The position numbers were made by a program, and so were the translations under genes. Positions 8,197 to 25,577 of a stretch of 43,159 nt of DNA are shown here, one piece after another; the first letter of the stretch is position 1; each line of letters begins with the position of its first letter. The notes beneath the pieces are model-generated. The model worked only from the letters and a program-made list of their open reading frames with translations. It was not told the DNA's origin and ran no database searches. Location: the NCBI GenBank assembly GCA_021804085.1, contig JAJZKM010000005.1, positions 1-43,159 of the forward strand. The letters are read 5' to 3'. This DNA comes from a bacterium (lineage in GTDB: Bacteria; Patescibacteriota; Saccharimonadia; Saccharimonadales; UBA4665).

Positions 8197-11100
8197 TATT
8201 TTTCTAATAAAACATTCTCAAATTGCTTAATCCCTGCTACGCTTTTTTTATATTTTGTGGTGTCAGGAAAATCTAGGCGCATGATCATTTCCCAAACAAC
8301 TTTTATTAATTCAGATAATTTTTGCTCTTCCTCTGACTTAAATTTTAGAGTTAAACTTTGAGGGATAGAGCTATCTGGATTCGGTTCTATGAACTGAATT
8401 TTAGCTGCTTCAACTTTATAGCCTTTGAATCTAGGAGAGTTTTCTACTAAAAATTTATAGAAGTATAGTTGTCGTTGGTTATGGTAGGATTTAACGTCGC
8501 TCCCCCATTTGCTATAGCTACTCCCTGTTTTAAAGTCGACGATAACTATTGTTTTTGCACTCACGTTAATTAACATTCGATCTATTTTTCCGCCTAACCT
8601 AATACCATCTAAGTTGATATTTATGCTCTCTTCACTTAGATCATGTTTATCAATTGGGATAGGATTATTTGGAAAGTAAAATCCTAGAGCATTAAAGCCT
8701 CGTTTTAAGTTCTGCGTGTATTCCAACTGATTTAATTTTGCTTTTCTTAGCTCAAATTCAAAGTGAGCCATGATGTCTTCCAGTAAGGGCTTATGGTCTT
8801 TTTTTGCGATACTGTTTTTAAATTCCCAATCTAGTGTGGCATGGATCGCACTGCCGTAAGCGCCAGCGACATTTTTGGGACGAGGGAATCCAAGGATTGA
8901 ATCAATAAAGAATTTTTTCGGGCCTTCATTAATTACATTGGTATAGGAATTTAGTTTAGACGCCGTTAAGTTAAATTTATTTAATTTGGCGTTCAAAAAG
9001 TCTCTCCGCTCCGTAGCCGTAAAATCTAGGTGTCTATCGAACCATAAATGGGCAGCATTAATTACAGGAATGTTATCAATGTCTGGTGTTAGAATTGTAT
9101 TTTTGTTTCTAGGTAATAATTTGCTATTGAAGCTGCCTTCTGGGTTATCTGACTCATCTAGAAAAACTACTTTTTTTGCACTTTTACCGCTAACTGTTTT
9201 TTTATAACCAACCATAACTAGTCTTGTTTTTGCCCGTGAAGCCGCAACGAATAAAAGTCTAAGTTTTTCATCGTCATTGTTATTGTCAATGCGTATATGG
9301 GCTAAGTTACTCGGTAAAGTTATTTTAGAGGGTTGATCTTGTGCTGAATGCCCCCAAACATGATCGCAAAAATTTATTAGTATAACACTTTCAAATTCCA
9401 GACCTTTAGCAGAGTGAGCGCTCATTAGATTAATTGATTGCTCACTTTCTTTAATGGAATAATTGTCGGATATTTTTATGTGAGCCGCAAGATGCCCGTC
9501 AGTGAATTCCAGCATATCTCGTATAGTAAGGAAATCTTCATTAATCTCGCGCATTTTAGAAATCAAGATGTTAAGACGTCCCGGAAGCCGCCATTGTTCA
9601 TTGCCTTCTCTGTTATCAAAATAATAGCTATAAAACTTACTGTTTACAGTAAGTTGGATATTGTCTTCAATTAATAGGTCTGCCGTACCCAATAAGTAGC
9701 TAATCATTGTTTCGAGTGAAGTATAGGAACTAATTTGGCTAAGGCGAATGTAGAAAAGCGCTATATTTCTAGTTTTTGGATCATTTAGTAGTAGTTCCGT
9801 CCAACTAGCATATGTCTGTTTGGCTGTTGCCGATAATTGCCAAATGAGTTCTGTGGGTAATGATTGATATTCATAACTAAGAACTTCGGGCCAAATATTG
9901 TTGGCGGATATATTGTCAGAATCTTCCAGCGCGCATACAAGACGGCAACATGTTAGCAGATTGTTTATTAAGGGGTCTTTTAGGATGTCATCTTTGCGTT
10001 CGTAGCTAATTGCGATCTGCTTAGCGTGCAAGTATGGAATAATTTCTTCTAGCATTTGGTGTTTTGGAGCGAATATTGCAATTGATTGAGGTGATTCTCC
10101 TTTATCGATTAAGGAATGCACATAATTGGCTGTCCAAGCTAAATGTTCATTGTCGAGGTTTAAATCAACGCGTAGAATTTGTTGAGGTTTATTTAACTCA
10201 AAGGCTTTTTGTACCTTAGGCAATAAATTGAGTTTTTCATTAATCTGCTCTCTTAAACCTCTGGAAAAATTTATAATTTCAGTACCGGATCGGTAATTTT
10301 GTTTTAAATTAATTAATTTGACATCACGGTAGTCATAATAGAAACGCTCCATGTGAGAATAATGAGCACCTTGAAATGAATATATAGCCTGATCATCGTC
10401 CCCAACTGCCAAAATATTAGGACGTTCTTCATTTACGGGATTGTCAGATAGCAGTTTAACGAGTTTAAACTGTGCTTCATTTGTGTCTTGAAACTCATCA
10501 AGTTGTATATATTGATACTTTTCTTGCAGGCTATATTTTAAATCTAAGTTAGTTTCTATCCCCTCAATTGCGATTAAAATCATGTCATCATAGTCGAAAA
10601 GTTTTTCTTTCTCTAATTGGTCATTGTAGAGTTGATAAATATCAGCGAATGCAAGTAGGCGTCGAATTACACGAGGGCTTTGTAGTCGAAAGCGGTTAGA
10701 GCTATCTTTTTCTAACCATTTATTTTTCCAAGCAGTCAGTGCCGGGGTATTGTTATTGTCCTGGGCAGTTGTAAGTGCCTGCTCTAGCTGTTCAATAAAG
10801 ACTTGCTTAACAGGAGTTACGTCATTAATTGACGGGCAGTTAAGTCCACTGGCGACTTCAAATAATTGAGCATATTTTGATATTAGAGCCTTGCTCATCT
10901 TTATAGTCGGGTCAATGATATCGTTAATTATCTGATCTATTTCCTTAGCAAATATGAGATTAGTATGGCAAACCTCCTTTAAGGTGTTAGGTGTGATTAG
11001 GGCTCGTTTAAATCCGCCAATTAGAGTTTTGATATCTTTAAGATAAATATCATTCTTCAGTGGATTATCATAGTCGAGTTCACTTAAAATTTTTCGAGTA

Positions 11101-11480
11101 AGACGGTCAAGTGCTAATTCGTCTGCAGGACGGCTACCCGGAGCCAAATCAAATAAGTCAGGGTATGATCGTATTAGTTCGTTTCCAAAAGCATGATATG
11201 TGGATATTGTGACTTCAGCTCCAGGGCGTCCTATTAGTTTAGATAGTCGTTCTTTCATAGCTACCCTGCCAGCCTCAGAATAGGTTAGGCACAATATGTT
11301 AGCTGGAGTAGTGTCACTATTTCTAAGAATTTGACCAATTCTTAATGTAAGTAGTTGGGTTTTGCCTGTGCCTGGTCCAGCGATAACTAGCACAGGACCT
11401 TCTATGTGATCTACTGCTTGACGTTGTTCATTGTTAAGACGATCTAGTGCTTTTTGATATATCTTATTGTTGGCAGTCAT
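8196..11480 (-). CDS. UvrD/PcrA-like superfamily 1 helicase with RecB-type nuclease domain
   Basis: This ATP-dependent 3'-5' DNA helicase probably acts in recombination or repair. Its 1094 residues carry all SF1 motifs: AGPGTGKT (34-41), DEFQDTN, GDDDQAIYSFQGA, LKQNYRSG, SAHSAKGLEFESV and LLFVAASRAKTRL. The last quarter has a PD-(D/E)XK nuclease core of the RecB/AddB kind: GGKIDRM, VDFKTG and NQRQLYFYK. Helicase-nuclease fusions of this kind are familiar from CPR genomes and may stand in for AddAB or RecBCD. An upstream in-frame TTG adds one residue; I prefer the ATG. It starts 18 bases after ndh, so the two probably share a transcript. Confidence 0.9.
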   Translation of the reverse strand: MTANNKIYQKALDRLNNEQRQAVDHIEGPVLVIAGPGTGKTQLLTLRIGQILRNSDTTPANILCLTYSEAGRVAMKERLSKLIGRPGAEVTISTYHAFGNELIRSYPDLFDLAPGSRPADELALDRLTRKILSELDYDNPLKNDIYLKDIKTLIGGFKRALITPNTLKEVCHTNLIFAKEIDQIINDIIDPTIKMSKALISKYAQLFEVASGLNCPSINDVTPVKQVFIEQLEQALTTAQDNNNTPALTAWKNKWLEKDSSNRFRLQSPRVIRRLLAFADIYQLYNDQLEKEKLFDYDDMILIAIEGIETNLDLKYSLQEKYQYIQLDEFQDTNEAQFKLVKLLSDNPVNEERPNILAVGDDDQAIYSFQGAHYSHMERFYYDYRDVKLINLKQNYRSGTEIINFSRGLREQINEKLNLLPKVQKAFELNKPQQILRVDLNLDNEHLAWTANYVHSLIDKGESPQSIAIFAPKHQMLEEIIPYLHAKQIAISYERKDDILKDPLINNLLTCCRLVCALEDSDNISANNIWPEVLSYEYQSLPTELIWQLSATAKQTYASWTELLLNDPKTRNIALFYIRLSQISSYTSLETMISYLLGTADLLIEDNIQLTVNSKFYSYYFDNREGNEQWRLPGRLNILISKMREINEDFLTIRDMLEFTDGHLAAHIKISDNYSIKESEQSINLMSAHSAKGLEFESVILINFCDHVWGHSAQDQPSKITLPSNLAHIRIDNNNDDEKLRLLFVAASRAKTRLVMVGYKKTVSGKSAKKVVFLDESDNPEGSFNSKLLPRNKNTILTPDIDNIPVINAAHLWFDRHLDFTATERRDFLNAKLNKFNLTASKLNSYTNVINEGPKKFFIDSILGFPRPKNVAGAYGSAIHATLDWEFKNSIAKKDHKPLLEDIMAHFEFELRKAKLNQLEYTQNLKRGFNALGFYFPNNPIPIDKHDLSEESININLDGIRLGGKIDRMLINVSAKTIVIVDFKTGSSYSKWGSDVKSYHNQRQLYFYKFLVENSPRFKGYKVEAAKIQFIEPNPDSSIPQSLTLKFKSEEEQKLSELIKVVWEMIMRLDFPDTTKYKKSVAGIKQFENVLLEK

Positions 11481-11498
11481 CAAATATTGAAAGTGTAA

Positions 11499-12713
11499 TT
11501 ATTTAATTACTGGTTCACTGAACGGAGCAGGCCTCTTTGGCTGGCATACGGCGCAATTATCTTCAACGTTATAATAGGAAAGCCACTGACGTCCTGCTTT
11601 TAGCCAAGGTTCGTAGTCACTATATGCCCTAGCGTCTGCCGCCTGCCTGAGAGCCCAACCAAGACGACCGTAAATTCTTAATTTACCATATATTACTGCC
11701 GCCCATCCTGATCCTGCAGGTATAATTGTTATTGGTCGTACAGCCTTGTAGCTTTTCATATCTTTTCCTTCAGCGCGTCTTTTTAAATTTTCTGCGACAA
11801 ATGCTCCGTCTCTTAGAGCTGTTTGTGCCATGCCGCTGAAAGGTGTATTTGCATTATCTCCTAGTACAAAAATATTATCTTCTGCTTGCAGGTAGATATC
11901 AGTTGCTACATGGTGTTTCGGAGTTAAAATGAATTGATTGGCTTGAAAAAAAGGATTAATGCCGGTTCCGGCAGTCCAGATCACTGTGTGGCTTTGGATG
12001 GGTTTATCGCCAACAATTAGTTCATTGGCGGTCTGTCCCTGAACGGCTTTACCGCAATAAATTCTAACGCCTAATTTCCTCAAACGACGTTGAATTGCTC
12101 GAGCACTGTCCCTAGGTAGATTAGGCAGCAGTCTTGGCGAAGCCTCTATGAGATCTATATGAATCGGAACGGGATCGATTGAGTGCTGCTTCATTAGTCG
12201 ATGTAAATATTCCGGTAGAGCAGCCGCTAGTTCAATACCAGTTGGACCCGCACCTACGACAACATAGTTAAGGTCAGGGTGATGATCGTTAATTAATTGG
12301 TTGTGCAAGTGCGCTTTTAATCTTTCGACGTCCTCAATACTTTTGACGCCGTATGATAATTCTTTCAGGCCAGGAATATTAAAATAGTTCGTAACTACAC
12401 CAAGTGCAAGCACTAAAGTGTCATAGTTAAAGACCACTCCATCTTTAGTGGATATTGCTTTAGTTTTTCGGTCTAAACTAACAGCTTCTCCTTGAGCTAT
12501 CCTTATGTTCTTGCCATCTAATAGCTCTCGTAGTGGGATATAAGAATTAGCCCTACTACCTCCTGTCGCTACATGATAAAGTGTCGGATAATAATTAAAA
12601 GCGTCTTTATTTGATAATAATGTAATATCGAAGTGCTCGTCACTGGATAGATCTAGAGCAGCTTTAATTCCAGCAAAGCCTCCCCCGATTATTAATACTT
12701 TTTCTTTTGTCAT
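11499..12713 (-). CDS. ndh: Type II NADH dehydrogenase (NDH-2)
   Basis: This single-subunit flavoenzyme passes electrons from NADH to quinone without pumping protons. The 404-residue protein has the FAD-binding VLIIGGGFAG near the N-terminus, the second dinucleotide fold VVVGAGPTGIELA, and the FAD-contacting IFVLGDNANTPFSGMAQTALRDG. The C-terminal segment, with aromatic and basic residues, would lie on the membrane. The frame is open 20 codons further upstream, but the ATG at 12713 matches the fold start and has TAGAAT (12727-12722) 8 bases before it, as expected for a leaderless mRNA. It supplies the NADH entry point for the respiratory chain encoded nearby. CAVC near the C-terminus is unexplained. 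Confidence 0.9.
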   Translation of the reverse strand: MTKEKVLIIGGGFAGIKAALDLSSDEHFDITLLSNKDAFNYYPTLYHVATGGSRANSYIPLRELLDGKNIRIAQGEAVSLDRKTKAISTKDGVVFNYDTLVLALGVVTNYFNIPGLKELSYGVKSIEDVERLKAHLHNQLINDHHPDLNYVVVGAGPTGIELAAALPEYLHRLMKQHSIDPVPIHIDLIEASPRLLPNLPRDSARAIQRRLRKLGVRIYCGKAVQGQTANELIVGDKPIQSHTVIWTAGTGINPFFQANQFILTPKHHVATDIYLQAEDNIFVLGDNANTPFSGMAQTALRDGAFVAENLKRRAEGKDMKSYKAVRPITIIPAGSGWAAVIYGKLRIYGRLGWALRQAADARAYSDYEPWLKAGRQWLSYYNVEDNCAVCQPKRPAPFSEPVIK

Positions 12714-12780
12714 AATTATATATTCTATTTTTAAGTATAACTTTTTTTGTTTCGACAGACCAGCTAATTGCACTTACTCA

Positions 12781-12924
12781 CTACTTCGTAGACACTTCGA
12801 CTCTTGGAATAGTTATGTTTAATGTAGCACAGAATTCTTCAGGAGTTAGGTAGTTTAGTGCTTGGTGAGGACAGCAATCAAATTTAAGACACCAATAACT
12901 TTCGTTTTTGGATTTTCTTAACTC
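12781..12924 (-). pseudogene. C-terminal remnant of an IS3/IS481-type transposase
   Basis: A 47-codon open stretch reads KSKNESYWCLKFDCC and then PHQALNYLTPEEFCATLN before a stop at 12783-12781. The PHQALNYLTPEEF segment is the classic C-terminal end of DDE integrase-core transposases of the IS3/IS481 group. Nothing upstream in this frame continues it (TAA directly before), and no catalytic DDE residues remain, so it is a dead fragment. It lies at the 3' side of the two unknown genes and marks a place where mobile DNA has entered. Confidence 0.75.
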
Positions 12925-12987
12925 TTACCCTAAATTGCAGCAAAGGAATTAGAAGTAAAGAAGTTAGAAAACTTAAGACTTAAGTTC

Positions 12988-14502
12988 TTACCCCACCGAC
13001 AGACGCGCGTAATCAGCACACTCAACATACGAGATGCTTAAGCCCCGTATACGAGTACAACCGTAGAAATGTGAGTAAGGTACCCTAGGCCGGCCGGGAC
13101 TTAGAATTAAGTTGAAATGACGAATTTTTGATCTTTCATCAATATCAGGACCATTAAATTGCCCCGTCGCCTTAAGTGTTTGCCAGAATGTTAGAGCGTC
13201 TAATACGCTAGGTACTTTATATTTGAGATTTGGTGATTGTCTCTTAAGTGAATCTAGGATTTGAACTTGTCGTTCAACCGTATCGTAGCCTAAATCTGCA
13301 TTATATTTGTTCGGAATAAGACTGAAGATAACTGCTCCCTCGTCTGGATTAAAGCCAGATAACTGAGCCAGTTCCTCATCGGTTCTAGGCTCTTCGAAGA
13401 TTGACCTTTTGCCATCATCAATAATGGCATCATACCCCAGATTTTTAGCAAAAATGTTAGCCAGTGATATTAAGCTTTTAGCCGAGACCGTAACATTAGG
13501 TCTAGCTACAAGAGTATGTAGTTCGCCGTGCGTAATAATTCTTTCTACTACATAATCTAGGACACCGCTTTCTTGCCACTCGAGCATTTTGGCTTCAAAT
13601 AGCTCTCCAAATTCTTCTTTAGTTAGTAGTGAGTCATTCGCCTCCTGCGAGCCTCGTTTCAATAAGCTTTGTTCGATGCTGGCTGGTTCACGCCATCTAA
13701 TATGTTCGGCAATTTCATTGTAGCCCTTATAGCTGAATTCAAAGCTTTCACGGAGGTATTCTATGGCTACTTTCCTCTTATTATCGTAGTCACGCTTGGC
13801 ATACTCCTGACGCAACTTGACAAGGTGCGAGTCTTTTTCTTTCCCCTCGATCTTACTGCTCTCGTGCAAAATTCGTATGTCTCGGTCCACATTAACCATA
13901 GATAGTCCCAACCATCTAATGTACTCACGCTTGTCATACTGCTGACGCAACTCAACAAAGAGTGAGTCTTTTATCTCGTAGTCAAATTTCCTATAGCCTA
14001 GTCTAATCTCATCGCCCTCCTGGCTGATTGGAACATAGATCTGAGGTGAAATCATATAGTACTTGCCTCGGTCGATGGTGCTAACTACGCCATTGCTGAT
14101 GTATTCGTATTCGCCATAATAGACATTGTTTTCTTCGTATTTGTAGGCATGTATGCCCCCATTGTTGTCGGCGATGTATCCTTTAGCGAGAGCTACTTCG
14201 GTTTTGTCCATCAAATCTTCTCGGCCAACTAGCGAAAAAACGGCTTGCCTCAAACCATAAGCAACATTGTCTAGGTTGCTGTCGAGTGTGTTGTCTGGAT
14301 TGCTAACTGTGTGGTTGTAGCGGTTCTTAATGGATACGTGTGTTCCATTGCGGCTAATTTGTACCGACATACTTGAAGTACCATATGGATCATCACGAGC
14401 CGGGATAAGGCCAGTTAGATTGTAGCTGTCAGAGTCCTGGTCGTAGCGGCCAATGGTTTTGAGATAGGTCTTCCAGCTGTCACTGAGAGTATTCACTGTC
14501 AA
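12988..14502 (-). CDS. Unidentified 504-residue protein of an accessory island
   Basis: I do not recognise a family. The protein is soluble-looking and charged, with no signal peptide or membrane helix. A 17-residue motif occurs twice, at residues 178-194 and 223-239 (KDS-x2-V-x-LRQ-x-Y-x-KR-x-Y). The first usable start is TTG at 14502, then GTG at 14496; neither has a ribosome binding site. The frame stays open upstream, overlapping the end of the preceding gene, and the extra residues (NKYHILWLRHTEVADTKPAN) look protein-like. The gene may therefore continue from the upstream gene by a -1 frameshift. The base composition looks less AT-rich than the flanks, and a transposase fragment follows, so recent acquisition is likely. 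Confidence 0.6.
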   Translation of the reverse strand: MTVNTLSDSWKTYLKTIGRYDQDSDSYNLTGLIPARDDPYGTSSMSVQISRNGTHVSIKNRYNHTVSNPDNTLDSNLDNVAYGLRQAVFSLVGREDLMDKTEVALAKGYIADNNGGIHAYKYEENNVYYGEYEYISNGVVSTIDRGKYYMISPQIYVPISQEGDEIRLGYRKFDYEIKDSLFVELRQQYDKREYIRWLGLSMVNVDRDIRILHESSKIEGKEKDSHLVKLRQEYAKRDYDNKRKVAIEYLRESFEFSYKGYNEIAEHIRWREPASIEQSLLKRGSQEANDSLLTKEEFGELFEAKMLEWQESGVLDYVVERIITHGELHTLVARPNVTVSAKSLISLANIFAKNLGYDAIIDDGKRSIFEEPRTDEELAQLSGFNPDEGAVIFSLIPNKYNADLGYDTVERQVQILDSLKRQSPNLKYKVPSVLDALTFWQTLKATGQFNGPDIDERSKIRHFNLILSPGRPRVPYSHFYGCTRIRGLSISYVECADYARLSVG

Positions 14503-14564
14503 CTCATTAGCCGGCTTGGTATCAGCAACTTCGGTGTGTCGGAGCCATAGGATGTGATATTTAT

Positions 14565-15257
14565 TTAGCCGTTCGCTTGGGTTATTGAGGGTACAAAGAG
14601 ACGTTCATTGGACCGAAAATCTTGCTTATCATATGGCACAAACTCGTCTGTAGATTCAAATGGCCCAGTGAGTTCATACCCAACACTGCGGGCTAGTTCA
14701 TATGGATCTTTGGCCAGTTGCCTCTCATATTCAGAAACGTTTTTGTACCGCTGCTCGAGCGTGGCCTGTATATAGGTGTAATTATCTTTGAGGAGTGCTA
14801 AGGCACCGTGTTTACTGGGAATGAGGCGTTTTAGTTCATTGGCAAAACCGGGTTGATCCATAAAACTAGCCAACAGTTCCCTGGCAGCTCCACCAGTGTA
14901 ACCACCACCTTCCATAAGATCACCTTTAACGAACCGTTCACTAAAACGATTTTTAAGCGCGCGTAGATTTTCATTAGTGTTCTTTTTGCGTTCAGATTCT
15001 AGCTGTTCGACACCAACTTCTGGGGTTTGCAGTAATTCTGTAGCAGCAGCAATAGCCACCGCACCCATTTCGCCTGGATTCAAAGGCTTAGCCAGTGTCT
15101 CTAGTGTGCCAGGTATATATTCTTCAGCTGGTCCAAGCTCCTGATTAGCAAAGTCAATATGGGGCTTCTCTAGTTGCGCCGACATTTGCGCTAGCTCCGA
15201 AACCTGTAGAACCGGTTCCCGTTGAGGTAGAAACTGGATTTCTGGGGAGTTATTCAT
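14565..15257 (-). CDS. Unidentified 230-residue protein, first gene of the accessory island
   Basis: No family is recognised. The N-terminal third is rich in Q, P and E (LPQREPVLQVSELAQ). The middle has a charged helical stretch (LESERKKNTNENLRALKNRFSE) and then GGGYTGGAARELLASF. No membrane segment or signal peptide is visible. The ATG at 15257 is chosen over the one 8 codons upstream because it is the more protein-like start; neither has a strong ribosome binding site. It is driven by a promoter that carries an inverted repeat (next entry), and its 3' end overlaps the extended reading frame of the next gene. A regulated two-gene cassette or one broken gene are both possible. Confidence 0.6.
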   Translation of the reverse strand: MNNSPEIQFLPQREPVLQVSELAQMSAQLEKPHIDFANQELGPAEEYIPGTLETLAKPLNPGEMGAVAIAAATELLQTPEVGVEQLESERKKNTNENLRALKNRFSERFVKGDLMEGGGYTGGAARELLASFMDQPGFANELKRLIPSKHGALALLKDNYTYIQATLEQRYKNVSEYERQLAKDPYELARSVGYELTGPFESTDEFVPYDKQDFRSNERLFVPSITQANG

Positions 15258-15283
15258 AATGTATATCTTAGGTCGTTGCAAGT

Positions 15284-15316
15284 ATGTATACTATAATACT
15301 TTATACATTATGTCAA
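15284..15316 (-). promoter_or_regulatory. Promoter with putative operator for the island genes
   Basis: On the minus strand TTGACA (15316-15311, perfect consensus) and TAGTAT (15293-15288) are 17 bases apart. Between and across them lies an inverted repeat, ATGTATA at 15284-15290 and TATACAT at 15302-15308, with 11 bases between the arms. The position is ideal for a repressor that blocks the promoter. The repressor is not identified. Confidence 0.6.
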
Positions 15317-15464
15317 TTATGTGCACTTAATCCTTAAATTAAAATTAGTTATTAGGATATTAATGAATAGTGCTAGTTATATTTAACTTTATGATTTTCA
15401 TTCCGATTAATTCTGGTTTGTAAGTATATTATACTTGCGCTAACTAACTAATTTAGCTTAAGCT

Positions 15465-15470
15465 TATACT
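15465..15470 (+). promoter_or_regulatory. -10 element of the FAD dehydrogenase gene
   Basis: TATACT lies 9 bases before the ATG at 15480, placing the transcript start about 3 bases before the start codon. No ribosome binding site is present, consistent with leaderless initiation. No good -35 box is seen at 17 bases; TTGCGC at 15435-15440 is too far away. Confidence 0.5.
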
Positions 15471-15479
15471 GGATTATTT

Positions 15480-17171
15480 ATGAAACCAGAAGAAACTAAA
15501 ATGGCTACGCCAGATCTTAAACGCTTGGTTATAGATTCTGGTTTTAGGGGCGAACTTGATGATTCTCCAGTAACTATTGAAGCTTACAGCCATGACGCTT
15601 CCCTCTTTGAGATTAAACCAAAACTTGTGGTTTTTCCACGTGATAGTAATGATATTGAAACCCTAGTAAAGTTTATTGCTGCAAACAAAAAAACTATTCC
15701 TTCATTATCTCTAACGGCACGATCCGCTGGTACGGACATGGTAGGTGGCGCAATCAATGATTCGATTATTGTAGATTTTAGAAAACATTTTACTGAAATT
15801 GAGATGGTTACTAGGACATATGCTGTTGCACAGCCAGGTGTTTTGTATAGAGATTTTGAACCACGAACTCTTCAGCATGGTGTATTAATGCCTACTTTTC
15901 CGGCATCTAGGGACTTAGCCAGTATTGGTGGTATGATCGCTAACAATTCGGGAGGTGAAAAATCTTTGGAGTTTGGTAAAACCAAAGATTTTGTTAATGA
16001 ACTTAAAGTTGTTTTTAGTGATGGGATTGAGCGTAGCGTAAAGCCTATACATAAGACTGAGCTTGATAAGATTATGGCTAAAGATGACTTCGAAGGAAGA
16101 GTTTATCGTAGAGTATATGAGCTTTGCGAAAACAATTACGATTCTATTAAATCGGCTACACCGAAAGTTAGTAAAAATTCAATGGGTTATAACTTATGGG
16201 ATGTCTGGGATCGAGAAAGTGGAATATTTGATTTAACTAAGTTGATCGTTGGAAGCGAAGGTACGCTTGGACTTGTAACCGATATTAATTTTAGATTAGT
16301 GCCCGCCAAAACTCATTCAGGTCTACTGGTACTGTTCCTTAGAGACTTGGATGATTTAGGTGAATTAATACCCTTAGTTCTAGCTCATCATCCGGCAACC
16401 TTTGAAAGTTTTGACGATCAAACTTTATGGCTATCGATTCGTTTTATGCCGAGCTTTTTAAGATTGCTTGGTGTTAAGAGATTTGTCCATCTGATAATCA
16501 GTTTAATTCCTGATGGTTTGCAATTATTACGTGGTATTCCTAAGTTAATTTTGATGGTTGAATTTAATGGAGATAATGAGGAAGAAGTGCGAAACCGAAT
16601 AAAGGCATTGCATAGTGAGCTTAAAAAGCAAAAAGCTCGTTATGAGATCAATGGTTTTGAGGAGGACGCTACTGAAGGAAAAAGTGAAAAGTTTTGGGTT
16701 ATGCGTCGTCAAAGTTTTAATTTGTTAAGAAGTAAAGTTAAGGATAAACACACCGCACCATTTATTGATGATCTGGTAGTTAGCCCAGAGTATTTAGTGG
16801 ATTTTCTTCCTAAACTCAGAAAGATTATTGTTAAGTATCACCTATTTGCCACTATTGCTGGGCATATGGGGGATGGAAACTTTCATATAATCCCGTTAAT
16901 GAAACTTGAGAATAAGTCTGAACGCGATACTTTGGTTCCCGCTATGAAGGAAGTGAATGATTTGGTTTTAAGTTATCATGGTTCCTTGTCGGGTGAGCAT
17001 AATGATGGTCTGGTTCGTGGACCTTGGCTCGAACAACAGTTTGGGCCGGATATTCTCAGAATGTTTAAGGAGATTAAATTCATATTTGACCCAGATAACA
17101 TTTTTAATCCGCACAAAAAGTCCGACGCAGATTGGGACTATAGTTTTGCTCATATACGCGAACACTTTTAG
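15480..17171 (+). CDS. FAD-linked dehydrogenase, GlcD/D-lactate dehydrogenase type
   Basis: This 563-residue flavoprotein belongs to the vanillyl-alcohol-oxidase superfamily, which oxidises 2-hydroxy acids such as D-lactate, glycolate or 2-hydroxyglutarate. The N-terminal FAD domain has TARSAGTDMVGGAIN, the signature SIGGMIANNSGGEKSLEFGKT and GSEGTLGLVTDINF. The C-terminal catalytic half has AGHMGDGNFHIIPL and SGEHNDGLVRGPW, which hold the metal and substrate-binding His/Glu/Asp residues of the group. It sits 50 bases upstream of cyoA on the same strand, so it probably gives electrons to the quinone pool used by that oxidase. The substrate cannot be fixed from sequence; D-lactate from fermentation is a reasonable guess. 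No iron-sulfur cysteine cluster is present. Confidence 0.85.
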   Translation: MKPEETKMATPDLKRLVIDSGFRGELDDSPVTIEAYSHDASLFEIKPKLVVFPRDSNDIETLVKFIAANKKTIPSLSLTARSAGTDMVGGAINDSIIVDFRKHFTEIEMVTRTYAVAQPGVLYRDFEPRTLQHGVLMPTFPASRDLASIGGMIANNSGGEKSLEFGKTKDFVNELKVVFSDGIERSVKPIHKTELDKIMAKDDFEGRVYRRVYELCENNYDSIKSATPKVSKNSMGYNLWDVWDRESGIFDLTKLIVGSEGTLGLVTDINFRLVPAKTHSGLLVLFLRDLDDLGELIPLVLAHHPATFESFDDQTLWLSIRFMPSFLRLLGVKRFVHLIISLIPDGLQLLRGIPKLILMVEFNGDNEEEVRNRIKALHSELKKQKARYEINGFEEDATEGKSEKFWVMRRQSFNLLRSKVKDKHTAPFIDDLVVSPEYLVDFLPKLRKIIVKYHLFATIAGHMGDGNFHIIPLMKLENKSERDTLVPAMKEVNDLVLSYHGSLSGEHNDGLVRGPWLEQQFGPDILRMFKEIKFIFDPDNIFNPHKKSDADWDYSFAHIREHF

Positions 17172-17180
17172 GTTATAGCT

Positions 17181-17195
17181 TTAGCATTATGCTAA
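17181..17195 (+). promoter_or_regulatory. Perfect dyad before cyoA, candidate operator
   Basis: TTAGCAT and ATGCTAA are perfect 7-bp arms around a single T, followed at once by AATATATAC, which could hold a -10 element. It lies between the dehydrogenase stop and cyoA. The stem is too AT-rich and lacks a T-run, so it is a poor terminator. Binding by a dimeric regulator is more likely. Confidence 0.45.
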
Positions 17196-17221
17196 TATAT
17201 ACCCGTAAAGACGAGAGATAG

Positions 17222-18103
17222 ATGACTAAAATTAGAAAAAAGTTAGTGTTGAGTCTATTTATTGTTATTGTGCTAATTATTAGTGGTGACTATTTGAGTC
17301 GAGTTAGTATTCCGGTTCTAGAGCCTAAAGGGGTAATTGCCGATCAAGAGTTCAGGTTGTTAATAATTATTACTTTAATTATGTTAATTGTTGTCGTGCC
17401 TGTGTTTTTTTTGTTAGCATTTATTGTTTGGAGATATCGTGACGACAATAATCACAGAGGTAAATATACTCCAGATTGGGATCATAGCCGACTGATTGAA
17501 GGAATATGGTGGGGAATACCAACATTATTGATTATAGTCGTTGCGATTATAACCTGGAAGGCCACATATGCGCTTAATCCATATAAGCCTATTGCTTCAC
17601 AGAATCCTACGATCACAATTCAAGTAGTATCCATGGATTGGAAATGGCTGTTTATATATCCGAAACAACATATCGCTACTATTAATTACATTGAGTTTCC
17701 AGTTAATTATCCAGTTCACTTTTACATCACTTCAGATGCACCAATGAATTCGTTTTGGTTACCTCAACTTTCAGGTCAGATATATGCCATGGCGGGCATG
17801 CAGACGCAGCTTTATTTAATGGCTAATGTCAAAGGTACCTTTATTGGCCGCTCGGCAAATATTAGCGGAATAGGTTTCGCTGGTATGCAGTTTAGTGCCG
17901 TAGCTGTTAATGCCAATACTTTTAAATCTTGGGTAAGGCGTACTTCTGATTCTCCTGAAACTTTATCTTTATCGGAGTATAAGAAGCTTCAGAAGCCAAG
18001 TTTATATGTTCCGGTAAGATTCTTTTCTCGACCAGTTGTAGGTCTGTTTAACGCGGTTATCAATCAATATATGACCCCAGAAAGTCAGGCGATTAAACTA
18101 TGA
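17222..18103 (+). CDS. cyoA: Cytochrome bo3 quinol oxidase subunit II
   Basis: Subunit II of the proton-pumping quinol oxidase. The 293-residue protein has an N-terminal hydrophobic segment, two membrane helices (about residues 44-70 and 90-114) and a periplasmic cupredoxin domain with SMDWKWLFIYP, MNSFWLPQLSGQIYAMAGMQTQL and ISGIGFAGMQF, close to the E. coli protein. There is no cysteine at all: the CuA ligands are absent, as in quinol rather than cytochrome c oxidases. The lipobox cysteine that lipidates the E. coli subunit is also absent. Its TGA stop overlaps the cyoB ATG by 4 bases. Confidence 0.96.
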   Translation: MTKIRKKLVLSLFIVIVLIISGDYLSRVSIPVLEPKGVIADQEFRLLIIITLIMLIVVVPVFFLLAFIVWRYRDDNNHRGKYTPDWDHSRLIEGIWWGIPTLLIIVVAIITWKATYALNPYKPIASQNPTITIQVVSMDWKWLFIYPKQHIATINYIEFPVNYPVHFYITSDAPMNSFWLPQLSGQIYAMAGMQTQLYLMANVKGTFIGRSANISGIGFAGMQFSAVAVNANTFKSWVRRTSDSPETLSLSEYKKLQKPSLYVPVRFFSRPVVGLFNAVINQYMTPESQAIKL

Positions 18104-20082
18104 GTTTATTCAATAACTTGGCTGGTATTCTAGGTAAACTGTCCTTGAAGCAATTTCCACATGATCCTTTAACGATGTTTGGTGCCGGTTTAATAGTTTT
18201 GGTGCCGATTGTAATTATAGCTATACTAACGGTCACAAAGCGTTGGCGCTGGCTATATCGAGAATGGCTGACAACCCAGGATCCTAAACGAATAGGAATA
18301 ATGTATATTATCGTGGCAATCGCTATGGGTCTGAGAGGTTTATCTGATGTTTTATTGATTCGAACTCAGCAAGCCATATCTGTTGGTAGTTCTCAGGGAA
18401 TTTTAAGCGCATCTCATTTTCAGCAAATTGTGAGCGCTCATGGCACGATCATGATCTTTTTTGTAGCTATGGGATTAATGTTTGGAATTATTAATCTAAT
18501 AGTTCCCTTACAAATTGGTGCGCGTGATGTTGCCTTTCCTTTTCTGAACGCAACCAGTTTTTGGCTATTCTTTTCAGGGATGGTATTAATTAATTTATCG
18601 TTAGTTATTGGTGACTTTTCTGCTGCCGGTTGGTTAGCCTACCCTCCCTTAAGTGAATTAAAATATAGCCCAACTGTGGGCGTTGATTACTGGATCTGGA
18701 GCTTAGAAATCGCAGGTGTTGGGTCGCTTTTGGCTGGTATTAACTTTTTGGTAACAATCTTGAAAATGCGAGTAAAAGGAATGAGTTTGATGAAAATGCC
18801 GATGTTTTGTTGGAGTGTATTAGGTTCGATGTTCTTAGTTGCGTTTGCTTTCCCTATTCTAACCGTAGCTTTAACTCTTTTAGCTTTTGACAGAGATCTC
18901 GGAACCCACTTCTTTACCTCCGGCGGAGGAGGCAATATGATGATGTACGTTAATTTGATTTGGGCTTGGGGCCATCCAGAAGTTTATATTTTAGTTTTGC
19001 CAGCTTTTGGTGTGTTTTCTGAAGTGGTTTCTGCTTTTTCTCGCAAAAAACTCTTTGGCTACACTTCTATGGTTTGGGCTATTTGGGCAATCGTATTTCT
19101 TTCTTTCATTGTTTGGCTGCATCATTTCTTTACCATGGGAGCAGGATCAAACGTTAATGCTTTTTTTGGAATCATGACGATGATTATAGCTGTACCTACG
19201 GGTGTTAAGTTATTTAACTGGTTATTTACTATGTACAGAGGTAAGTTAGATTTAAAAACACCCCTACTATGGTTTATCGCTTTTGCGGTAGTTTTTACCA
19301 TCGGTGGTATGGCCGGTGTGTTAATGGCCGTGCCGCCAATAGATTTTCAGTTACACAATAGTCTTTTCTTGGTAGCCCATTTTCACATGATGATTGTGGG
19401 GGGTGTAGTTTTTGGATATTTTGCTGGAATAACTTATTGGTTTCCTAAATTCTTTGGTTTTAAGCTCAATGAGCGGCTTGGTAGATATGCGTTTTGGTGT
19501 TGGCTAATCGGTTTTTTGCTGGCCTTTATTCCGTTATATATTCTAGGTTTTATGGGTGCAACTAGACGGCTTAATCACTATAGTGCTTCTCTAGGTTGGC
19601 AACCATTATTCGTGGTTGCAGGTATAGGTGCCGTAGTTATTGCAGTTGGTGTTGGTTTTCAGTTTTTGCAACTAATTTTTAGTATTTTGCAAAGACATCA
19701 GAATACCTCTGGTGATGATCCTTGGGATGCTCGAAGTCTAGAGTGGTCGCTTCCTACGCCCGTACCATTTTATAATTATGCTAGATTACCTGCGGTGACT
19801 GAGCGAGATGCTTTTTGGATTGCAAAAAGAACCCACCAAATTGATACGAGAGAATATGAGCCAATAGAACTACCACGTAATACCCCTCTGTCGATGATTA
19901 TCGGTGTTAGCATTTTAATATTTGCTTTTGCGATCGTATGGCACATTTGGTGGCTCGCCGCAGTCGGATTATTGGCGGCAGTGGTTATTATTATTCGTTC
20001 AATGGACGAAAACACGACATATACCATAAGTGCTAACGAGGTCATGAAATTGGATAAATTGTATAGAGAGGGTGAAGTATAA
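18100..20082 (+). CDS. cyoB: Cytochrome bo3 quinol oxidase subunit I
   Basis: This is the catalytic subunit that reduces O2 and pumps protons. The 660 residues match the E. coli length. Heme b ligands are H114 and H429, the heme o ligand is H427, CuB ligands are H292, H341 and H342, and the Tyr cross-linked to histidine is Y296 (HPEVY). The proton-path residues D143 (ARDVAFPFLN) and E294 are kept. The quinol-site residues R79, D83, H106 and Q109 (LRGLSD, HFQQ) correspond to R71, D75, H98 and Q101 of E. coli. All key residues are present, so this should be a working A-type quinol oxidase. It is directly followed by cyoC. Confidence 0.98.
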   Translation: MSLFNNLAGILGKLSLKQFPHDPLTMFGAGLIVLVPIVIIAILTVTKRWRWLYREWLTTQDPKRIGIMYIIVAIAMGLRGLSDVLLIRTQQAISVGSSQGILSASHFQQIVSAHGTIMIFFVAMGLMFGIINLIVPLQIGARDVAFPFLNATSFWLFFSGMVLINLSLVIGDFSAAGWLAYPPLSELKYSPTVGVDYWIWSLEIAGVGSLLAGINFLVTILKMRVKGMSLMKMPMFCWSVLGSMFLVAFAFPILTVALTLLAFDRDLGTHFFTSGGGGNMMMYVNLIWAWGHPEVYILVLPAFGVFSEVVSAFSRKKLFGYTSMVWAIWAIVFLSFIVWLHHFFTMGAGSNVNAFFGIMTMIIAVPTGVKLFNWLFTMYRGKLDLKTPLLWFIAFAVVFTIGGMAGVLMAVPPIDFQLHNSLFLVAHFHMMIVGGVVFGYFAGITYWFPKFFGFKLNERLGRYAFWCWLIGFLLAFIPLYILGFMGATRRLNHYSASLGWQPLFVVAGIGAVVIAVGVGFQFLQLIFSILQRHQNTSGDDPWDARSLEWSLPTPVPFYNYARLPAVTERDAFWIAKRTHQIDTREYEPIELPRNTPLSMIIGVSILIFAFAIVWHIWWLAAVGLLAAVVIIIRSMDENTTYTISANEVMKLDKLYREGEV

Positions 20083-20697
20083 ATGGCGGCTGAAATTGAA
20101 ATACATAATACGAATCGACTGATTGAAAGTTATGATCGTGATGCTACAACTATATTAGGTTTTTGGGTTTATTTGATGACCGATTGTGTTTTGTTTGCAA
20201 GTCTTTTTGCTGTATTTGCTGTGTTGCGCAACAATACATTTGGTGGTCCTTCTGGGGCTACACTATTTAGTCTTCCGTATGTATTGGCTGAGACCTTTTC
20301 ATTGCTTACTAGTAGTTTTACCTGCGGGTTGGCTGTATTGAGTGCTCAACGTGGCAACAAAAAACATACGATCTTCTGGTTTGGTGTTACTTTTCTGCTT
20401 GGCCTTATATTTTTAATAATGGAAATTAGTGAGTTTCACAAATTTGTCAAAATGGGTGATAGTTGGCAAAGAAGTGGGTTTTTATCTTCATATTTTACGC
20501 TAGTTGGCACTCACGGGCTTCATATAACCATTGGGCTAATTTGGATTGCTGTTATGTGTGTATATGTATATAAACGTGGTATTGGACAAACTACATTAAA
20601 GCGTATTCGGATGTTATCTCTTTTTTGGCATTTTCTTGATGTTGTTTGGATATTTATATTTACAGTTGTGTATTTGTTTGGGGCATTACACGCATGA
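20083..20697 (+). CDS. cyoC: Cytochrome bo3 quinol oxidase subunit III
   Basis: This 204-residue membrane subunit has five hydrophobic segments and the signatures GFWVYLMTDCVLFASLFA near the N-terminus and GTHGLHITIGLIWI and FWHFLDVVWIFIF near the end. It stabilises subunit I. The start follows the cyoB stop without a gap, and its TGA overlaps the cyoD ATG by 4 bases. Confidence 0.96.
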   Translation: MAAEIEIHNTNRLIESYDRDATTILGFWVYLMTDCVLFASLFAVFAVLRNNTFGGPSGATLFSLPYVLAETFSLLTSSFTCGLAVLSAQRGNKKHTIFWFGVTFLLGLIFLIMEISEFHKFVKMGDSWQRSGFLSSYFTLVGTHGLHITIGLIWIAVMCVYVYKRGIGQTTLKRIRMLSLFWHFLDVVWIFIFTVVYLFGALHA

Positions 20698-22974: not shown

Positions 22975-23652
22975 CTAATCGCCTAATTTATAACCAAATC
23001 CACGTACGGTGCTGATTAATGGGGGCAGATTTTCGAAGGGTCGGTCAATTTTTGATCGTAAATAACCAATATATACCTCGACAGTGTTAGGCATCACGAT
23101 TGCGTCTTCATTCCAGACGTGATTTATGATCATATCTTTAGTAAGTATTTGTTCGGAGTGTCTCATAAAATATTCAAGAAGCGAAAACTCTTTGCTTGAT
23201 AGTCTAATCGGCTTTCCGTCACGAGTTACCTCGTACTTCGCTAGATCTAGTGCCAGATCCTTGTATTTTAATATTGCTTCGTTGGTAATCGGTGGACGAC
23301 GCATTAAAGCTTGCATTCTTGCTACAAGTTCAGAGAATGAAAAAGGTTTAACAAGATAATCATCTGCACCAGCGTTCAGGCCCTCTACTTTATCATCTAT
23401 ACTGCCTCGGGCGGTTAATATCAGGATTGGTGCTTTTTGGCCTTCTTCACGTGCTTTTTTGGCTATTTGTAGGCCGTCAATGCTTCCTGGTAGCATTCTG
23501 TCGATTATAATGATGTCATAGTCTGGATCAATTGCATAACTTAGGCCGGTATCGGAATCATTGACAGTGTCAACAGCATAACCCTTTAACTCAAGCCCTC
23601 TTTTTACGGCATTAGCAATTTTTTCTTCATCTTCAATAAGTAGTACTCTCAT
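22975..23652 (-). CDS. OmpR/PhoB-family response regulator
   Basis: This 225-residue transcription factor has a receiver domain (1-115) with phosphorylation site D51 and the conserved T80 and K102. The C-terminal winged-helix DNA-binding domain carries LSSKEFSLLEYFMRH and NTVEVYIGYLRSKID ending in TVRGFGYKL. It is first in a two-gene unit with the kinase. A TAAACT element (23664-23659) 6 bases before the ATG would give a leaderless mRNA; TATACT slightly further upstream is an alternative. No direct link to the cyo genes can be shown. Confidence 0.95.
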   Translation of the reverse strand: MRVLLIEDEEKIANAVKRGLELKGYAVDTVNDSDTGLSYAIDPDYDIIIIDRMLPGSIDGLQIAKKAREEGQKAPILILTARGSIDDKVEGLNAGADDYLVKPFSFSELVARMQALMRRPPITNEAILKYKDLALDLAKYEVTRDGKPIRLSSKEFSLLEYFMRHSEQILTKDMIINHVWNEDAIVMPNTVEVYIGYLRSKIDRPFENLPPLISTVRGFGYKLGD

Positions 23653-24881: not shown

Positions 24882-25577
24882 ATGATTAATATTCATGAAA
24901 AAATGTTCGATCAGTTCATTTCGCATTACCCTACACGTTCTTATCGCAAGGGTGAAATTATTATATTCCAAGGTGAGGCTCCAAGATCAACATTTGTTAT
25001 TAGAAGTGGAGTGGTTAAGGCATATAATCTTAGTATTCATGGTGATGAAAAACCAATGGGTTTCCTTGGGACTAGAGATAGTTTTCCCGGAACCTGGATT
25101 TATGACAAAGTACCGAGTGCTATTTACTATTATGAAGCCTTCACCCATGATAGCGTAGTGTATTTAGTACCTCGTGATGACTATGTGGCCTTCATACGCT
25201 CAAATCCGGCTATGGCTTTAGCGGAGCTTGATCGTTATGTGGAAGGACAACTGGGCTTATCTATGCAGCTTAACGCCCTACAGCACTCTAGGGCTAATGA
25301 AAAGCTGATGTATACCTTGCACTACTTATCAATTGCCCATGGCAAACCGATTAGCGATAAAAAAAGAGAAATTGAATTTCATCTTACTCATCAAGATTTT
25401 GCTAATTTAACCGGTTTAACAAGAGAAACTGCAGCTACTGAGCTAAATAAGCTTAAACACTTAAAGGTTATAAATTACGGCCAAAACATACCCTACACAG
25501 TTGACCTAGCTAAATTGCAATCTATTCTTAACGATCAGTATATATCTGAACTCGACCCTGGGACAGGAACTGCTTAG
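24882..25577 (+). CDS. Crp/Fnr-family transcription regulator
   Basis: This 231-residue protein has an N-terminal cyclic-nucleotide-binding-type barrel (about 15-125: YRKGEIIIFQGEAPRSTFVIRSGVVKAY), a long dimer helix, and a C-terminal helix-turn-helix (LTHQDFANLTGLTRETAATELNKLK). It has no cysteine, so it cannot hold an Fnr-type iron-sulfur cluster. The cAMP-pocket arginine/serine signature is not clear, so its ligand may differ. TACACT (24869-24874) lies 7 bases before the ATG, again a leaderless arrangement. Given its place near the respiratory genes, control of respiration is possible, but that is inference. Confidence 0.9.
   Translation: MINIHEKMFDQFISHYPTRSYRKGEIIIFQGEAPRSTFVIRSGVVKAYNLSIHGDEKPMGFLGTRDSFPGTWIYDKVPSAIYYYEAFTHDSVVYLVPRDDYVAFIRSNPAMALAELDRYVEGQLGLSMQLNALQHSRANEKLMYTLHYLSIAHGKPISDKKREIEFHLTHQDFANLTGLTRETAATELNKLKHLKVINYGQNIPYTVDLAKLQSILNDQYISELDPGTGTA

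Follow-up and report, generated by a model that had tools for sequence, protein, structure and literature searches.

Diversity-generating retroelements (DGRs) copy a template, with errors at adenines, into the 3' variable region of a target gene. DGRs in Patescibacteria, together with the modular make-up of their targets, have already been described (PMC8144416), and so have DGRs with several targets of which even the most distant diversify (PMC3521204). The locus described here lies in a window of 43,159 nucleotides (the whole stretch of DNA analysed, contig JAJZKM010000005.1 of assembly GCA_021804085.1) from a bacterium of the Saccharimonadales, lineage UBA4665. At this locus a promoter of clear layout precedes a single gene homologous to DGR targets, in an assembly in which no DGR machinery was found. 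A sequence-only reading had proposed an operator-like inverted repeat inside a consensus promoter, on a foreign-looking cassette of two proteins expected to be a defence, toxin or phage-type module. We instead favour, with a probability of roughly 0.8, a sigma-70-type promoter belonging to a transferred, orphaned and frozen DGR-target gene, with the repeat playing no regulatory role. Coordinates are collected in Table 1.

Table 1. Features of the island, its gene and its promoter (positions in the window; strand as read, with a dot where none applies)
Feature	Position	Strand	Remarks
Inserted stretch between NDH-2 and FAD-oxidase genes	12746..15433	.	Edges set by eye from relatives' intergenic sequences
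Remnant of the 3' end of an integrase-core (rve-type) transposase gene	12769..12872	-	Copies at 96% (C6), 94% and 76% (C22)
Inverted repeat AACTTAAG-T-CTTAAGTT just past the stop codon	12970..12986	-	P 0.2, chance level
Rest of gene: end of N-module and C-terminal DGR-target domain	12988..14597	-	N-part 75% to G311 over 200 codons
IMH-like end GCGCGTCTGTCGGTGGGG, then TAA	12991..13008	-	Unique in the genome when up to 3 mismatches are allowed
Variable-region-like 3' end (approximate extent)	12991..13090	-	Set against the templates of four relatives, mismatches favour template adenines
5' ORF with the N-terminal module, in another frame than the rest	14565..15257	-	ATG 15257-15255; 72% to G311 protein over 163 codons
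Place of frameshift, about 14598	14594..14602	-	A single G311 protein aligns by tblastn in two pieces that join here with a change of frame
11-bp inverted repeat, CATAATGTATA (15255-15265) and TATACATTATG (15302-15312)	15255..15312	.	One arm contains the start codon
Inverted repeat ATGTATA-N11-TATACAT	15284..15308	.	Arms 7, spacer 11, no mismatch; not conserved, chance level
-10 hexamer TAGTAT	15288..15293	-	Spacer to TTGACA of 17
-35 hexamer TTGACA	15311..15316	-	From the sequence, a promoter scan and comparison with relatives

The genes for NDH-2 and a FAD-linked oxidase face each other without the island in all 15 genus relatives that show both genes, and no match to either island ORF occurs at the junction in these 15. 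A total of 16 FAD-oxidase loci from the 18 genus relatives were examined, and 15 have both flanking genes; the count excludes G011 (contig ends first), G017 (match starts at the contig end) and G002 (paralogue only). Measured from where NDH-2 starts to the first FAD-oxidase codon that aligns, the gap is 83-199 bp in 13 relatives and 447 and 934 bp in one each, and the window junction is longer than theirs by about 2.7 kb. The cassette is indeed foreign-looking, as borne out by its absence from these relatives and by its G+C content (0.444 against 0.380 for the window). The NDH-2-side end of the island, about 115 bp past the gene's stop codon, is the transposase remnant, which we take to be IS481-like; the protein of its 76% copy matches rve_3 (Pfam). 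Other extra DNA occupies the same junction in L077 (G008; 2141-2878), of 934 bp, and in L082 (G006), of 447 bp; the G008 insert holds a 245-aa ORF with what reads by eye as a pilin-like hydrophobic start. Next to the NDH-2 and FAD-oxidase genes, and in a genome assembled to 652 kb, the window also carries genes for terminal oxidase subunits II, I and III (COX2/COX_ARM, COX1 and COX3; 17222-20697).

What had looked like two island proteins is a single gene of DGR-target type, interrupted by a frameshift. G311, a genome from another family of the same order, encodes a 667-aa protein that matches both ORFs, in two frames that meet at one residue, and because this one continuous protein spans both we read them as a single gene with a single frameshift, the break being either a real mutation or an assembly error. 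Programmed frameshifting was also considered and set aside, as no slippery heptamer was seen by eye. Differences from G311 at codon positions 1, 2 and 3 number 33, 24 and 67 on one side of the break and 38, 23 and 91 on the other, and this third-position excess on both sides indicates that for most of its history the gene evolved under constraint at the protein level. The C-terminal domain is closer to those of G004 (45% identity) and L165 (44%) than to that of G311 (37%). The part of the N-module that lies on the 3' ORF occurs in three of 392 order genomes (the window's own, G311 and G374), and the C-terminal domain in 19 of 198 relatives and 25 of the 392, with the own genome counted in both. 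In L171 (G374:C18) the window gene's N-module is followed not by the DGR domain but by another C-terminus, rich in repeats. No family was found for either ORF in Pfam (E<0.01), PHROGs (E<0.3), PADLOC or NCBIfam. The 3' ORF has no match in genome_contigs or viral_contigs and the 5' ORF none in viral_contigs; among the 198 relatives, a set that does not include G311, the 5' ORF (query window:14568-15260, one residue too long) matches only itself.

The perfect TTGACA and the TAGTAT at the proposed spacing are both present. A promoter scan of 11000-18500 returned 10 sites, of which this one scores highest at 10/12; since shuffles of the same stretch give 20.3 expected sites, the scan by itself is no evidence for a promoter. 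The relatives are more informative. A promoter with a spacer of exactly 17 and a score of 10/12 or better is found upstream of 18 of 27 distinct relative genes, as against 2.3% of 2,900 Markov-1 upstreams, which bears out the claim of a consensus promoter, and because the layout recurs in this way we regard it as a genuine sigma-70-type promoter from which the gene would be transcribed. The nine relatives that lack a 17-spaced promoter at 10/12 count against our explanation. These figures stand for 19 of 28 rows, L154 and L155 being one record; they leave out L152 and L153 (same records as L057 and L061) and include L070, whose start position is not fixed, and L074, which has 75 upstream bases only. 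The window's own upstream was taken from 15260, 3 bases before the true ATG (15257). TAGTAT likewise serves as the -10 in L057, L058, L155 (= L154) and L161, and TAATAT in L061, L156 and L157.

The inverted repeat across the spacer and -10 is also there as the sequence-only reading had it, and its frequency is unremarkable. An ATGTATA/TATACAT pair with up to two mismatches occurs once in the window against 0.40 expected, and at least once in 33 of 100 shuffles. Any perfect 7-bp inverted repeat with a spacer of 3-20 appears in 10.4% of 20,000 shuffled versions of the 69-bp promoter that keep its hexamers and in 25% of 5,000 Markov-1 sequences of 77 bp, so that some such repeat is expected in 10-25% of comparable AT-rich promoters; the window as a whole holds five perfect 7-N11-7 repeats and 117 start positions for 7-bp repeats with a spacer of 3-20. 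That reading had overlooked the 11-bp inverted repeat and a third ATGTATA at the start codon. Any 11-bp repeat with a spacer of 3-40 is found in 0.085% of the 69-bp shuffles, a stretch 3 bases short of the full arm, and in 0.74% of the 77-bp Markov sequences, and the window holds seven start positions of such repeats. Any 7-mer comes three times within 77 bp in 4.1% of Markov sequences, with three such regions in the window; the exact word ATGTATA, picked after being seen, did so in 0 of 20,000. For a single promoter to carry ATGTATA three times as well as an 11-bp inverted repeat is mildly unusual.

Neither repeat recurs in the relatives' upstream regions. ATGTATA-N11-TATACAT is found in 0 of the 27 distinct genes, the closest approach having 3 of 14 mismatches (L071) and the rest 4-7, and the word ATGTATA occurs once each in L062 and L073 and in no other relative. 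The 11-bp repeat was not seen in the relatives' upstreams; the comparison listing of 11-bp repeats omits the window's own, whose upstream ended at 15258, those listed for L068 are runs of N, and L061 and L161 have unrelated ones far upstream. Unrelated 7-bp repeats lie over the best -10 of L064 and L065.

Complete versions of the target type are found among the relatives. In seven related loci (L058, L059, L061, L069, L070, L165 and G311) a template repeat lies beside the target gene, and the two differ almost only at template adenines. Over the last 57 nt, mismatches at template A and non-A positions are 14/17 versus 0/40 in both L165 and L061, 13/15 versus 1/42 in L058, and 9/17 versus 0/40 in L069, an adenine-specific pattern that suggests copying of the template into the target. 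In L059 (G168) and L070 (G049) the template lines up only in part and the variable region is out of frame with it, so that these targets look broken inside the variable region; alignment A1 omits both for this reason. Reverse transcriptase and Avd adjoin all seven loci, in the case of L061 by way of its copy L153 and in the other six as tblastn matches to the L153 proteins, and the reverse transcriptase is in two frames in L059 and G311. RVT_1 (Pfam) scores above its cut-off in L153 and L165. Below the curated cut-offs are bAvd (Pfam; E 3.2e-5 for L153, 6.3e-7 for L165), the Avd model NF033474 (NCBIfam; E 3.9e-8 for L153) and the best NCBIfam name for the L153 reverse transcriptase, a group II intron RT. 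The nearest PDB sequence to the relatives' reverse transcriptase is 8ub7, "Reverse transcriptase" (E 1.9e-30), presumably of phage BPP-1 origin. To judge from their sequences, these loci are diversity-generating retroelements, with weak backing from the family models.

A reverse transcriptase match is present in seven of the 19 genomes with the C-terminal domain (G020, G049, G103, G132, G150, G153 and G168), in G020 on a contig other than that of the target gene, and in 21 of the 179 remaining relatives. In G132 the target is on one of the contigs C13 and C15, and template repeat, Avd and reverse transcriptase are on the other; each piece is close to the end of its contig, which makes an assembly break the probable cause of the split, and we dropped it as evidence for action in trans. 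G103:C24 has two target-type genes (L069 and L161), the second with a TTGACATAAT...TAGTAT promoter. In L165 (IMG/VR record 3300033402_000781, filed as viral) the set of target, template, Avd and reverse transcriptase is flanked by genes for a Clp-type ATPase and a large serine recombinase, and the record may be a bacterial or integrative element rather than a phage. Searched against viral_contigs, the L069 target has no match and the L165 target finds only its own record.

The window gene shares the IMH-like end GTGGGGTAA with L057, L058, L061, L063, L065, L069 and L165; this end is absent from the full-length relative G311 and from the genus's short homologues. Compared with the L069 template, the gene differs at 11/17 adenines and 9/40 other positions (p 0.0032), and the templates of L165, L061 and L058 give p 0.014, 0.038 and 0.048, four values that are modest and non-independent. 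No adenine lean appears in four short genus homologues (16 comparisons, lowest p 0.11) or in the long relative L062 (p 0.42-0.71), and the true target L069, set against foreign templates, gives p 0.017-0.22. The lack of a lean in L062 marks the test as blunt, and since the window gene has no template repeat of its own, its diversification is read from the relatives' templates. DGR targets often carry a stem-loop just after the stop codon; at that place a stem-loop reaches P <0.05 only in L057 and L061. An AlphaFold2 model of the window's C-terminal part with four relatives has a mean pLDDT of 47, too low to show a C-type-lectin fold, and the best PDB sequence match is at E 0.22. The short homologues L064, L066, L067 and L073 (G005, G009, G015 and G002) lack the IMH end; over the last 28 residues G005 and G009 are identical and G015 has a single difference, and their variable domain is apparently frozen.

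As to machinery, the window's own genome (G000, 81% complete) yielded no template repeat, as a second profile match or IMH end, no reverse transcriptase in profile and RT-query searches, and no Avd with an Avd query; the missing parts may sit in its unassembled portion. PF00078 is found in 0 of 19 genus genomes, six of them at least 90% complete, and a reverse transcriptase query at E up to 1 gave one weak match in the 19 (G014, E 0.012). The Avd query gave one clear match in the genus, a two-frame relic in G008, and three weak ones (E 0.01-0.06); within the 12 kb examined the relic has neither reverse transcriptase nor target. Because neither reverse transcriptase nor Avd was found in its genome, we class the window gene among homologues or relics of DGR targets rather than as a working DGR; it is probably a stranded and broken target.

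Three other explanations deserve weighing. The gene could still be a live target, if the fifth of the genome that is missing from the assembly contained a template repeat, Avd and reverse transcriptase that diversify it in trans. The intact IMH-like end and the frame that stays open through the variable region favour this, as does the diversification of distant targets described in PMC3521204, but the genus-wide dearth of reverse transcriptase, the decayed state of its one clear avd trace and the frameshift upstream of the variable region make it unlikely. A two-gene defence or toxin-antitoxin island under autoregulation would fit two ORFs of foreign composition behind a promoter with a palindrome, yet it is very improbable: one continuous G311 protein matches both ORFs, and the cassette yielded no DNA-binding domain. 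The expectation of a defence, toxin or phage-type module likewise fell away, there being no PADLOC match and a sole PHROGs match, at E 0.39.

A strain-specific operator is a further candidate, in which a repressor encoded elsewhere would bind the repeat or the three ATGTATA words, cover the -10 and silence the transferred gene. In its favour are the position of the repeat over spacer and -10, the cluster of words and 11-bp repeat between 15255 and 15312, and, among the window ORFs scanned, genes for an OmpR-type regulator at a distance of about 8 kb (22975-23652) and a CRP/FNR-type one at about 10 kb (24882-25577). The sequence-only reading had itself held that relatives keeping the cassette without the repeat would speak against an operator, and this is what the relatives show. 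The genome search that it proposed returned a single perfect copy in the 652-kb assembly and no second, and mismatched copies, sought in the window, number none beyond this one. Moreover, no regulator was found in the cassette, and CRP/FNR consensus sites are unlike ATGTATA-N11-TATACAT. We therefore rejected the operator, which is quite improbable, on the lack of conservation and the chance-level frequency of a 7-bp repeat; most likely the repeat is a chance pattern inside an ordinary promoter.

The account that we prefer, the promoter of an orphaned DGR target, can be put as follows. The gene most likely arrived by horizontal transfer with its own promoter. In intact relatives the target is followed by template repeat, Avd and reverse transcriptase. 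Its variable region, presumably diversified by a DGR in the past, is most likely now frozen, given that the search for template repeat, Avd and reverse transcriptase in this genome came up empty and that what is left of a transposase gene follows the target. The inverted repeat would have arisen within the AT-rich promoter, partly from the shared TAGTAT box, and would have no regulatory role in the gene family. More speculatively, Saccharibacteria might exchange DGR targets as free-standing modules, made of promoter and IMH end without template or reverse transcriptase, that recombine N-terminal and variable domains, with stranded targets frozen or re-diversified by a later DGR and the window gene a chimera. 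We hold this broader scheme to be doubtful; it draws on the N-module, at 72-75% to G311, and on the C-terminal domain being nearer to G004 and L165 than to G311.

An operator here would be of minor interest. Read as what remains of a DGR, the locus shows a possible fate of a hypervariable target once its machinery is gone in a lineage of reduced genomes, and genus relatives retain the same domain in seemingly frozen form. The 17-spaced promoter together with the GTGGGGTAA end offers a practical clue to DGR targets missed by searches led by reverse transcriptase. Our literature search turned up no paper on orphan DGR targets in Saccharibacteria, which is no proof that none exists.

Among described systems, the closest appear to be the Patescibacteria DGR clade 2 targets of PMC8144416, which the locus resembles in its C-terminal variable region and modular N-termini and, in its relatives, in adenine-specific mismatches, Avd and reverse transcriptase; the window copy differs in being frameshifted and in that searches for a template repeat, Avd and reverse transcriptase to go with it found none. 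The short genus homologues (in G005, G009, G015 and G002) have the same C-terminal domain and no reverse transcriptase match in their genomes, but end in GGTTAG, GGTTAA or GGCTAG rather than GTGGGGTAA and lack the adenine lean. With the Bordetella phage BPP-1 DGR (PMC12875486), the likeness lies in the IMH-like end of the target and in the Avd and reverse transcriptase of the relatives; in contrast to that system, the relatives' target domain has no family name and their order is target, template repeat, Avd on the opposite strand and reverse transcriptase. Set beside the DGRs already known in Patescibacteria, what is new here is a DGR target that looks orphaned, chimeric and frameshifted.
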